DNA from: Thiomicrospira sp. XS5
GTDB taxonomy: Bacteria > Pseudomonadota > Gammaproteobacteria > Thiomicrospirales > Thiomicrospiraceae
NCBI RefSeq assembly: GCF_001507555.1
Contig: NZ_LQBO01000001.1
Span: 1,860,001-1,924,000, forward strand
DNA length: 64,000 bases
Direction: 5' to 3'
The stretch's first letter is position 1. Each line of letters opens with the position of its first letter. The position numbers were made by a program, and so were the translations under genes. The notes under the pieces were generated by a model that saw only the letters and a list, made by a program, of their open reading frames with translations, ran no database searches and had not been told where the DNA came from. Below are positions 48,993 to 52,965 of the stretch, piece by piece.

Positions 48993-49350
48993 GGGGATGC
49001 ACTGGTTTCGACGGGGAGTACAAAGTTTAGGATGCATGCCGTGCCTGAATGATGCACGTTAATCTTTATTTCAATTTGTTATAGTTGCAAACGACGATAA
49101 CTACGCTCTAGCGGCTTAATCCCGCTAGCGCAGACTGGGGCCGTTGTTCGTGGCGCCCAGTTCTGTGTCGACTTACACGGAATCGTCAGCTTTATGTGTT
49201 TGGATGAAGTCTGATTAAACTTTACAAACTCGCCGAATATGATCCCTGTTGATCGGGCAGTATTCTGGTTAAAATAGTAGATCAAATAAGCATGTAGAGT
49301 TTTAAATGGAGGCTTCTCGGACGGCGGTTCGACTCCGCCCATCTCCACCA
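48993..49350 (+). ncRNA. ssrA: Transfer-messenger RNA (tmRNA)
   Basis: The 5' end GGGGATGCACTGGTTTCGAC pairs with the 3' end CATCTCCACCA to form the tRNA-like acceptor, with the T arm GGCGGTTCGACTCCGCC and an encoded CCA. The tag reading frame starts at the resume codon GCA (49087) and ends with TAA at 49117-49119, giving ANDDNYALAA, close to the common ANDENYALAA. The 3' end doubles as the left attachment site of an inserted island. Confidence 0.96.
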
Positions 49351-49351
49351 A
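49331..49351. repeat. Left attachment site (attL), direct repeat copy 1
   Basis: These 21 bp begin GACTCCGCCC and end CCACCAA. They cover the last 20 nt of ssrA and are repeated exactly at 52945-52965. Confidence 0.9.
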
Positions 49352-49442
49352 TTAAAGAGAAACTGTTTGATTTAACTGTCATTCGTTATTCGAACTATCA
49401 CATTGTGAGATACATAGTTAGTGGTCCATAAAAAGATCTAGT

Positions 49443-49568
49443 ATGGTGCGCTCACAATCTTCTTTTTTATCCAAATCCAGACACGGTATTTATTACTTTC
49501 GACTTCGCATAGGCAATAGTGAAATCAAATGATCGCTAAAGACGCGCGATAATAGTCGCAGACTGATT
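49443..49568 (+). pseudogene. Remnant of a tyrosine-type phage integrase (N-terminus)
   Basis: From the ATG at 49443 the plus strand reads a 29-residue start containing SKSRHGIYYFRLRI and ending in EIK, then TGA, then in the same frame SLKTRDNSRLIQ. The pattern (basic, RHGxYYFRxRI, then EIRxSLKTRD) is that of the N-terminal arm-binding domain of many phage and island integrases, with one nonsense codon where Arg is normal. Similarity ends after ~49568, and no catalytic domain remains. Its place next to attL, reading away from ssrA, is where an intact integrase would lie. Confidence 0.6.
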
Positions 49569-49786
49569 CAGTCGAACCCAAACACGCATATAGGCCATGT
49601 TTCTAAATACTCTGCAAGTCGTTTCATTATTCTACTTCCGAAAAATTCACTACAATCACTCCTTAATCCTATTTTTTTATTACCCACACGGTCATAGAAA
49701 TGATTCTCTCCTGCTAGAAAATAAGAAGTCTTAGGCATAAGTGAACTTCTATTTATGGGTTGCGCCCTGCCCTCTGCGCAATGCAA
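49568..49786 (-). CDS. Short hypothetical reading frame in the island
   Basis: This 72-residue open frame matches nothing I recognise and has no convincing ribosome binding site. An internal ATG gives a 56-residue version starting MPKTSYFLAGENHFYDRVGN. It touches the end of the integrase remnant on the opposite strand. It is more likely chance than a gene. Confidence 0.2.
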   Translation of the reverse strand: MHCAEGRAQPINRSSLMPKTSYFLAGENHFYDRVGNKKIGLRSDCSEFFGSRIMKRLAEYLETWPICVFGFD

Positions 49787-49881
49787 ATTTGAAAGTGGTA
49801 TAACCTTATACTTTCAGCGTAGGAGCCACCCATTAAATCTATTGATAAAAGTGACTAACCATGCCCAACCTGGCTATATAC

Positions 49882-52587
49882 TCACCTTCCCACAGGTCTT
49901 AGTCCACGCCTATTGGTTAGCAAGCTAACATCTTTTGAATTTTCACTACGGCAAAGTCTCTCCAAAACCCGCTGTTGCGTTTCTGGTGTCCAGAAAATTT
50001 TTAAGTGCTCACGTGCTCGAGTTATAGCTGTATAAAAGATGCTGTGAGAAATATCATCTTTGTTGGCATCAGTTATCACTATCTTCACTGAATCAAACTC
50101 AAGCCCTTGTGCTTTATGAATGGACACCGCATATGCCACCTGAAATGGTACTGTAGTATTCATTGCGTCATCGTCTTCATCACTTGCGTCGTAATCATAT
50201 ACAGTGAAGCGCACAATCGCTCCCTCAACCCACTCCAAGTCATCAATTCCGGCAACATCAAAGGCATTTAGCGAACGATCGAGCTCTACATCAAACTGAA
50301 TCAAACCAAGTTCAGACTGAATATCAACGATTTTTCCTTTCAGGTTGTTATATATCACAGGCCTAAAACGATCACTTTCATGGAATAGGATAGGGTCTCC
50401 CACTTTATACGATGTTTCACGCCAAATAGTGACTTCACCAGGGTTACTACTCTGCAAAAAACGATTAACATTGTTAATTCCATAAAGGCCATCATAGTTC
50501 AAGCATAAAATTATCTCATCCTGCTCTTGTGTTTCAAATAGAGTATTATCGAGCACTGTTGAATAACCATTACGTGCTATGACTTCAGCAAGATCATCAT
50601 CAATATTTCTCACTTTATCCCAAAAATTTAATAACGATGTATTCGTAGCCCTAAAGGGTGTCGTCAACTCAAACACTGATGTACTGGGAATGAAGGAGCG
50701 AATAATACTAAACCAGTTACCAAACTGAATCGATTCGATTTGGAAGATATCGCCAACAAGCACAACTAACTTAAAAGTACTGCCATTTAAGACTTTGATT
50801 AAGTCCGCATTACTGACAGTACTGCACTCATCGATAACAAGAAGGTCATACTCTTGTCCAAAAGTATCTCTGTAGTTCTGGCTACTAATCGTTCGAAAAT
50901 CAGCATTTTGCGCAGTTATTCTACGCTTGAGGTTATCAATCGCAGGATTAGTGTGAGCAAGAAATAACTTCTTTTTCTCATTAAAGTAATGCGCTATATG
51001 ATTCACCATTGTTGATTTACCAGTTCCTGCTGCTCCATAGATTAGGGCGACCTTAGACTGACAGAACAACAGCTTGATCGCATCCACCTTTGCAGGATCG
51101 TCAATACCACTAGATGTCTGATTGAGCCAGTATTCTACAGCTTGTGTATACCCATCAATCCTAGAAGATGCATATTCCTGCAGCTTATTGAGAATGGAAA
51201 CAGTTTCATCTTCATACCCCTGGATAAATACGTGTCCCATGTCAAGTACGAGTTTTCGAACTGGCTCATGTCTCCAGTATAATTTTCTGTTATAAACTGA
51301 TAGTAAAGCATTAACACCTCCAAACTCTTCCAACTCCCTCACGGGAGTGTATAGAATTCCATGGTATTCCACGTTATTCTTTACTCGTCTAGCGAGCAAT
51401 TCATGGTTCCGACCTGTCACATTAATACTCTCAATCAAATCCCAGTAACGGGGGTTATGACCTACTAACGAAGTACAAAAAGGCATGGTATCAAATGGAA
51501 TACAGCTATAACTAAAATTCAAGTCAGACAACAAAGAGCACCCTCTGCCATCATATTGAGGTTTAAGAATATTGTTGTTCATTCTCAGCATTAGATATCG
51601 TAGAACAGTGCATCCATTAGCTCGGATTCTCACTATCTGCCGTACTTTATCTAGCATCTGAAAAAGATGAATAGATTTAGCACTTTGAATAACCCACGAC
51701 TTTACTTGAGCATAGTTGTCATCTGCCATATCGATCAAATCAAGTAAACTTCCCGAACTTACAGTAAGCCAATGCATTAAATTTCGGTACTCTGCTGAGC
51801 TAGCCTGAACAGAAATATTATGATATCCAAGGAAGCGTGCAAAGTTTTTCAATTCGCAAGGACGAATCGACACCTCCCATTTACGGATAATAATAATCGG
51901 CATCGTCTGATCAAGCACGCTGATTGCCTCCCTTTGAAGCGTCAACATGGCCGCATACTTGTCAGTCATATCGATTTCAGTAAAGGCAATAATTCGATCA
52001 GATTTATTTGCCTTGTTTATGGCCCTATAGAATGTAACTTCATAATAAATACCCCCGCTAACAAAGAATGGGCGAACTTTGTGAATGTAGTACCTTTCTG
52101 GACGAACCTCTGCTGAAGGGGAGCGAGCGCACTCAATTCTTTGAGCAATCTTTTCATGGTATTCACGTAATGATGGATCAAGGTCTAGTGGAAAATTTTC
52201 AAGGTTTATTAGCACTAAAAACCCGTAGTTATCTCGAAGTAAACTACGGATTCGTAAAAGGTACTCGTAATACTTAAGCATTAAACGCTCAGAAGCATCT
52301 CCATCCTGTGTGTAATGAGAGGCACTTATTTGGAGTAACTTATGAAACTTACCCAGAAAGCTATATGTCGCTACACTTTTAACGTAGGCATTTCCAGGCT
52401 CTATAAGATCATAAGTCAACTCAACATCAGGCAAGTTTGTATGGATAAGAACAGATACCGCCTCAATCAAATTCCGTAGCTGAGATATAACATTCTGTGA
52501 AAGCAAAGCACGATGGTCTATTAGTTTTTCAATATTGCCACATATCGCTTCATTTGCGCTTTCAATCTGCTTTCTGACTGTAGCCAT
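49882..52587 (-). CDS. Superfamily 1 (RecD2/UvrD-like) DNA helicase with novel N-terminal region
   Basis: This 901-residue protein has helicase motifs only in its C-terminal half: Walker A GAAGTGKST (518-526), Walker B LLVIDECSTVS (582-592), motif III GDIFQ (612-616) and motif IV TPFRATN (643-649). An SH3-like insert around GDPILFHESDRFRPVIYNNL (730-750), AVSIHKAQGLEFDSVKIV (820-837) and FYTAITRAREHL (851-862) follow, as in RecD2-type enzymes. Residues 1-500 show no domain I know, and no PD-(D/E)xK nuclease site is evident. The ATG has AAGGAG 11 nt upstream. As the only intact gene of the island it may be a single-gene defence system, but that is inference. Confidence 0.85.
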   Translation of the reverse strand: MATVRKQIESANEAICGNIEKLIDHRALLSQNVISQLRNLIEAVSVLIHTNLPDVELTYDLIEPGNAYVKSVATYSFLGKFHKLLQISASHYTQDGDASERLMLKYYEYLLRIRSLLRDNYGFLVLINLENFPLDLDPSLREYHEKIAQRIECARSPSAEVRPERYYIHKVRPFFVSGGIYYEVTFYRAINKANKSDRIIAFTEIDMTDKYAAMLTLQREAISVLDQTMPIIIIRKWEVSIRPCELKNFARFLGYHNISVQASSAEYRNLMHWLTVSSGSLLDLIDMADDNYAQVKSWVIQSAKSIHLFQMLDKVRQIVRIRANGCTVLRYLMLRMNNNILKPQYDGRGCSLLSDLNFSYSCIPFDTMPFCTSLVGHNPRYWDLIESINVTGRNHELLARRVKNNVEYHGILYTPVRELEEFGGVNALLSVYNRKLYWRHEPVRKLVLDMGHVFIQGYEDETVSILNKLQEYASSRIDGYTQAVEYWLNQTSSGIDDPAKVDAIKLLFCQSKVALIYGAAGTGKSTMVNHIAHYFNEKKKLFLAHTNPAIDNLKRRITAQNADFRTISSQNYRDTFGQEYDLLVIDECSTVSNADLIKVLNGSTFKLVVLVGDIFQIESIQFGNWFSIIRSFIPSTSVFELTTPFRATNTSLLNFWDKVRNIDDDLAEVIARNGYSTVLDNTLFETQEQDEIILCLNYDGLYGINNVNRFLQSSNPGEVTIWRETSYKVGDPILFHESDRFRPVIYNNLKGKIVDIQSELGLIQFDVELDRSLNAFDVAGIDDLEWVEGAIVRFTVYDYDASDEDDDAMNTTVPFQVAYAVSIHKAQGLEFDSVKIVITDANKDDISHSIFYTAITRAREHLKIFWTPETQQRVLERLCRSENSKDVSLLTNRRGLRPVGR

Positions 52588-52944
52588 AAACTACCTATCT
52601 CCTTCAAATAACGAAGCTAAGCAATAACTATGAATTAATAACTGTAGACTACAGCATCTCTCACCAAGATTCATAGTTTTTTATCTAGAGCATTACCAGC
52701 TAAAGCCTTACCCATGTCTTGAATTAGAATTTCAGAAACCTACAGTAAATAAAATTCGTACCTCCTAATGAAAATATCATTATCAGTTACTTGTAAAAAG
52801 TAACAAACGAAATTAGCATAACAACAAATAATTAGTTTATGTCCGCTTAGTGAGACACAAAGTGATACATGGAGGGTAAAAACGACCCCACCATTTGGTA
52901 CTTATAAATTTGATATTAAACAGAAAAGCCGTCGTGGTTAAATA
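52588..52944. other. Right, non-coding end of the ssrA island
   Basis: This AT-rich stretch of about 360 bp lies upstream of the helicase gene. It contains nested inverted repeats (52626-52678, separate entry) and a GTTACTT/AAGTAAC hairpin (52786-52804). There is also an AGGAGG-like sequence on the minus strand near 52770 without a start codon. No gene is visible. Confidence 0.6.
52626..52678. promoter_or_regulatory. Nested inverted repeats upstream of the helicase gene
   Basis: The outer arms AACTATGAAT (52626-52635) and ATTCATAGTT (52669-52678) match perfectly. Between them lies the odd palindrome CTGTAG-A-CTACAG (52642-52654). The unit ends 39 nt before the helicase start, which suits a repressor-controlled promoter or a folded mRNA leader. 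Confidence 0.5.
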
Positions 52945-52965
52945 GACTCCGCCCATCTCCACCAA
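52945..52965. repeat. Right attachment site (attR), direct repeat copy 2
   Basis: This is an exact 21-bp copy of the ssrA 3' end. The sequence before it (GTCGTGGTTAAATA) only loosely resembles the tmRNA T arm, so this copy is not a second tmRNA. Confidence 0.9.

Follow-up and report, generated by a model that had tools for sequence, protein, structure and literature searches.

The helicase gene and its island at ssrA

We analysed a stretch of 64,000 nucleotides (hereafter, the window) from contig NZ_LQBO01000001.1 of Thiomicrospira sp. XS5, in which one large gene lies between two copies of a short direct repeat beside the tmRNA gene. The features of the locus, in window coordinates, are listed below.

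48993-49350, plus strand: ssrA (tmRNA) gene, the insertion target (ARAGORN; Rfam RF00023)
49331-49351, plus strand: attL, the 21-bp repeat GACTCCGCCCATCTCCACCAA at the ssrA 3' end (perfect direct repeat)
49443-49694, plus strand: probable relic of an integrase N-terminus with one in-frame stop, beside attL (translated frame; Pfam DUF6538)
49882-52587, minus strand: intact gene for a PDC-S53-type SF1B helicase of 901 aa (ORF; PADLOC PDLC05035)
52945-52965, plus strand: attR, the second perfect copy of the 21-bp repeat (direct repeat and empty-site comparison)

When positions 49352-52965 are removed, the joined flanks match the empty-site genome of a congener colinearly (89%) and unbroken across the junction, giving exact boundaries for the island. 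The insert between the repeats measures 3.6 kb, has a GC content of 38.8% against 48.9% for the window, and contains the helicase as its only intact gene, an ORF with an ATG start that is present as a single copy in the genome. No other defence gene and no replication gene was found in this island, nor an intact integrase, and a tblastn search with the integrase of a congener's ssrA island gave nothing credible. The frame beside attL translates as HGIYYFRLRIGNSEIK*SLKTRD and resembles an integrase N-terminus; its match to DUF6538 (16.5 bits, E 0.0067) is weak and below the 27-bit cut-off, so that a decayed integrase at this position is probable, not proven. A promoter scan returned fewer sites than were obtained in shuffles.

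The same ssrA site carries other cargo in congeners. The interval between ssrA and fliN varies in several of them (L100 and L101, both from genome G005, as well as L097, L098 and L099), and in one congener the repeats of the ssrA 3' end enclose about 33 kb of inserted DNA. This insert encodes a tyrosine integrase, has metal-efflux-like genes, and includes type I RM genes that were assigned by reading the sequence. The initial annotation had raised the prospect that homologues would sit in ssrA or tRNA islands, which holds for the window copy and is not general among its relatives, for a tRNA gene lies nearby in only one of the 32 loci scanned (L014). There, a tRNA-Ser gene (L014:35-122) is found directly upstream of the PDC-S53 homologue at the contig edge, possibly a second insertion of the tRNA type.

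Architecture of the helicase and its front half

The observation that motivated this work, an unrecognised N-terminal half at 51088-52587, was placed correctly in coordinates, strand and frame, since these positions are residues 1-500 of the 901-residue ORF, and the SF1 motifs are indeed confined to the second half, with the motor starting at about residue 508. Pfam matches (Viral_helicase1, AAA_30, UvrD_C_2) start at about residue 502-515 and the NCBIfam RecD2 model (TIGR01448) at residue 458, and neither library has a match before about residue 458; the front half of the helicase is therefore invisible to these general libraries. A Pfam search with the N-terminal half alone gave no match in the window copy and scattered low scores in 25 relatives. 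The term "unrecognised" is thus apt for Pfam and NCBIfam and does not hold for two more specialised collections. The PADLOC profile PDC-S53 (PDLC05035) matches with 1344.4 bits, aligning residues 1-896 with profile positions 1-896 of 900, which makes the gene a member of that family, and PHROG 325, annotated as a "Dda-like helicase", covers both halves of the full protein (201.8 bits over residues 5-880) and detects the N-terminal half on its own (residues 5-346, 1.6e-14). Weak PADLOC matches to GajB (34.6 bits), Nhi (47 bits) and AbiO (43 bits) are limited to the motor region. The residues of Walker A and B, motif III and motif VI are invariant in the 25 relatives.

The protein was folded with AlphaFold2 on the basis of 25 aligned full-length relatives, taken from public contigs, which yielded a mean pLDDT of 84.5 and a pTM of 0.79 for the full protein, and 85.4 and 0.76 for the N-terminal half alone. 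Model numbering equals protein numbering minus 1 because the start methionine is absent from the reference. The following parts can be distinguished, the first four of them in the region preceding the motor.

52120-52587, minus strand: N-terminal helical domain, residues about 1-156 (AlphaFold2 helices)
51865-52116, minus strand: OB-fold-like five-stranded barrel, residues about 158-241, including both patterned segments of the initial annotation (structural alignment)
51604-51861, minus strand: helical linker region, residues about 243-328 (AlphaFold2 secondary structure)
51115-51603, minus strand: RecD/RecD2-type helical N-domain before the motor, residues about 329-491 (3gp8 alignment and RecD2 profile)
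49930-51114, minus strand: SF1B motor (Pfam and NCBIfam matches, alignment of relatives, 3gp8 structural alignment)

Against the PDB, the best match of the full model is RecD2 (3gp8; Z 23.2, rmsd 5.0, 482 aligned residues, model residues 328-898), followed by TraI and RecD. HHalign with the RecD2 sequences collected here aligns residues 391-879 with a probability of 99.7 and gives no match for residues 1-390; these two ranges place the start of the RecD-type chassis at about residue 329 on structural grounds and at 391 on sequence grounds. HHalign thus showed no sequence homology between the N-terminal half and the region of RecD2 that consists of an OB domain and tandem HhH motifs, and lends no profile support to the OB-like barrel seen in the model. 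The unexplained part consequently amounts to about 325 residues, not 500, and the original observation is real, yet overstated in extent.

Both patterned segments noted earlier in the front half exist, and in the model they form strands 1-3 of the small beta-barrel. The 50 chains listed for the N-half model all span model residues 157-241, and almost all are OB-fold proteins that bind single-stranded DNA (SSB, PriB, LEF-3, RecO) or N-domains of MCM. The best of these alignments has a Z of 7.3 over 81 residues with an rmsd of 2.8; a Z of about 7 is modest and can reflect a common arrangement, yet the fold type of the listed chains is notably consistent. In a library of viral structures, the only match of the N-terminal half below 0.001 was a pithovirus RecD helicase, and a Foldseek search of the PDB with the same half returned nothing under an E of 0.001. 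Rows for isocitrate dehydrogenase (IDH) kinase/phosphatase, RecJ and a Cry-protein (E 0.04-1, TM about 0.1) were treated as noise, and no conclusion was drawn where a family was missing from the fold-search lists. The front half was seen only in fusion with this helicase, in that the 26 viral contigs retrieved with the N-half alignment are all known full-length loci; a search of genome contigs gave only two loci because the query was a single sequence.

As initially reported, the N-terminal half of the window copy contains no nuclease, TIR, protease or zinc motif detectable by Pfam, and the relatives show unrelated sub-threshold matches. The earlier proposal, in which the helicase carries an unknown sensor or effector, is retained in part: the structural model suggests a possible sensor or DNA-engagement module, presumably nucleic-acid-binding given its OB-like barrel, on a RecD2-like chassis, while no effector domain, be it nuclease, TIR or protease, was detected. 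An abortive-infection effector triggered by the helicase, with the N-terminal helical domain being HEPN-like or otherwise toxic, would agree with helicase-effector fusions as a known defence design and with a strongly conserved SHYTxDxxxSERLMLKYY stretch in the helical bundle, which to our eyes is loosely reminiscent of HEPN-type motifs. This explanation nevertheless appears quite improbable, as Pfam gave no HEPN or nuclease match in the 25 relatives and the helical domain (about 1-155) has no PDB sequence match, and as the conserved histidine is glutamine in the phage members (L009 and L010) and no arginine occurs at the spacing expected from the HEPN motif R-x4-6-H.

Distribution and neighbourhoods of PDC-S53 relatives

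The PDC-S53 family is present in one of 12 genomes of the genus and three of 63 of the family, and in larger samples in one of 398 genomes of the phylum and three of 396 Actinomycetota. Plasmids of Rhodococcus, Sporosarcina, Phocaeicola and Lactiplantibacillus carry full-length copies, as do two phages and about 27 IMG/VR contigs; the copy on an Arthrobacter plasmid is split. Partial, unannotated matches on plasmids of Rhodococcus fascians (NZ_CP015237.1) and Acinetobacter pittii (NZ_CP027659.1) are possibly decayed copies. The phylogenetic tree places the window gene closest to two copies from its own family, with a Mycobacterium copy and further Actinomycetota joining next, a placement that implies transfer between phyla. 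PDC-S53 homologues are rare as well as mobile across phyla. Such sporadic presence, together with settings that comprise RM operons, the cargo of Tn7-like elements, plasmids and prophages, shows that the homologues do not lie mostly in core-genome positions.

Nor does the protein qualify as a well-known housekeeping helicase, the RecD2 model giving 103.3 bits against a curated cut-off of 500. No RecD2 above the TIGR01448 cut-off was found in the 63 genomes of the host order, and the island helicase is therefore not a known housekeeping enzyme. The same absence, combined with the RecD2-like motor, might suggest a horizontally acquired DNA-repair helicase that replaces the RecD2 missing from the host lineage. 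We consider this very improbable, because the gene is confined to three of those 63 genomes, in which its sites differ, and its neighbours are enriched for defence genes, not repair genes.

The neighbourhood survey covered 20 relative loci outside the prophage clade described below, and it bore out the expected clustering with defence genes, in that RM or Gabija genes adjoin the homologue in L002, L014, L015, L020, L024, L026, L038 and L095. A complete Gabija pair (GajA, 955 bits; GajB, 851 bits) lies upstream of the relative in L020, a type III RM system neighbours it in L024, and HsdR and AbiH flank it on either side in L026. HsdR is also found near relatives in L002, L015 and L095, HsdM in L014 and L095, a type IV restriction gene in L038, and a type II-like methylase in L003. 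Searched against PADLOC at E ≤ 1e-40, 64 large neighbour proteins matched 80 families, mainly of type I RM, compared with two families, each in one protein, for 62 proteins around 18 housekeeping RecD2 loci; as the control loci are chromosomal and from Actinomycetota only, and the case set has plasmid and prophage backgrounds, this contrast is indicative, not calibrated.

Two of these loci have further content. In Mycobacterium arosiense, a gene for a caspase-like domain fused to a DEAD helicase (L002:12633-15827) lies directly downstream of both PDC-S53 and an operon for type I RM. The copy in Thiomicrorhabdus cannonii (L003:6288-22677) is cargo of a TniB/TniQ transposon that also carries PRTase-CE, ORC-CDC6-like and methylase genes and that adjoins an interrupted comM-like gene, whose position was determined by reading the sequence.

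Helicases of one clade, from Firmicutes phages and prophages, are preceded on the same strand by a partner gene that lies 15-104 nt upstream. This clade comprises 14 of the 34 tree rows and has a single origin (support 100/100); the partner gene was located at L009:7146-7982 (with the helicase at L009:8001-10793), L010:7146-7982 and 15 IMG/VR loci (L025, L027-L035, L037, L039, L040, L042 and L043). Its products share a conserved C-terminal module, about 130 residues long, behind three unrelated kinds of N-terminus, and all 16 viral contigs found with this module also carry PDC-S53. The first 133 residues of one kind match the initial part of the LmuA profile PDLC03857 of Lamassu (49.7 bits), and no SMC gene, as expected for LmuB, is annotated beside the partner gene in the two phages. 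The conserved C-terminus and swapped N-termini suggest that the partner may be an adaptor docking on the helicase. The window island is without it.

The carriage of PDC-S53 on plasmids, and on phages with an annotation as Dda-like or RecD-like, also fits a replication or an anti-defence role. Given the RecD2/TraI-like motor, the helicase could serve mobile elements in the replication, recombination or transfer of phage and plasmid DNA and merely travel with defence genes. We regard this as unlikely: in the prophage clade the helicase and the adjacent replication genes are transcribed in opposite directions and methylase or REase genes follow beyond the helicase, copies lie within or beside chromosomal RM operons of unrelated bacteria (L095, L002), and the window island has no replication gene. 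The link to phage defence proposed at the outset is instead supported by context, namely a single-gene cargo at ssrA with an empty site in a congener, sporadic presence, a host order with no RecD2 above the cut-off, and relatives with RM or Gabija neighbours.

Proposed role and relation to known systems

Guilt-by-embedding is the approach by which PDC families were proposed as candidates for phage defence (PMC12988326), and the literature searched has no mention of PDC-S53, which stands as a listed candidate, by prediction only. The window gene resembles the family in its full-length profile match (residues 1-896 of 901), and eight relative loci show the embedding in or beside known defence systems that defines it; the window copy differs in being alone in its island, and one sister clade departs from the single-gene model through its added partner. 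With RecD2 of D. radiodurans (3gp8/3gpl) the helicase shares the SF1B motor and the preceding helical N-domain, but it falls far under the TIGR01448 cut-off, has no sequence match before residue 391, and is a sporadic accessory gene, whereas RecD2 is a housekeeping one. GajB of Gabija and Nhi/AbiO are likewise SF1 helicases in phage defence; neither the UvrD-like character of GajB nor the nuclease domain of Nhi was seen in the island helicase. PHROG 325 matches both halves but is a broad phage protein cluster for which we know of no tested role.

With moderate confidence, we favour a RecD2-like SF1B helicase or ssDNA translocase whose front end would bind nucleic acid and whose gene is the single defence cargo of the ssrA integrative island. 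DNA binding by the front, polarity and defence outcome are the steps that we infer. The OB-like barrel would engage ssDNA exposed by phage replication or by the cleavage of phage DNA, or the forks of invading DNA. The RecD2-type motor would load at the bound ssDNA or fork and translocate 5'-to-3', a polarity proposed by analogy with RecD2, and this translocation could block phage replication or packaging directly or, alternatively, expose phage DNA to nucleases, either those of the host or neighbouring ones. In the one prophage clade, the upstream partner with its swappable N-terminus might supply or modulate the output.

A broader generalisation, which we offer as possible though doubtful, is that PDC-S53 constitutes a distinct RecD2-derived type of defence, an OB-fold-tipped SF1B translocase that would sense phage ssDNA and act solo in most hosts, joined in one Firmicutes prophage clade by a dedicated adaptor that would dock on the helicase through its conserved C-terminal module and whose N-terminal module is swapped.

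With the window gene, a listed candidate family thus gains a new member and, in addition, structural and partner-gene detail. A defence candidate so far defined by a profile only can now be tested as an architecture that combines an OB-like front end with a RecD2-type motor. Since the helicase is the only intact cargo of a minimal natural island, no other genes would confound a test of its effect, and the linked partner gene in one clade points to the place where a sensor or effector may dock.
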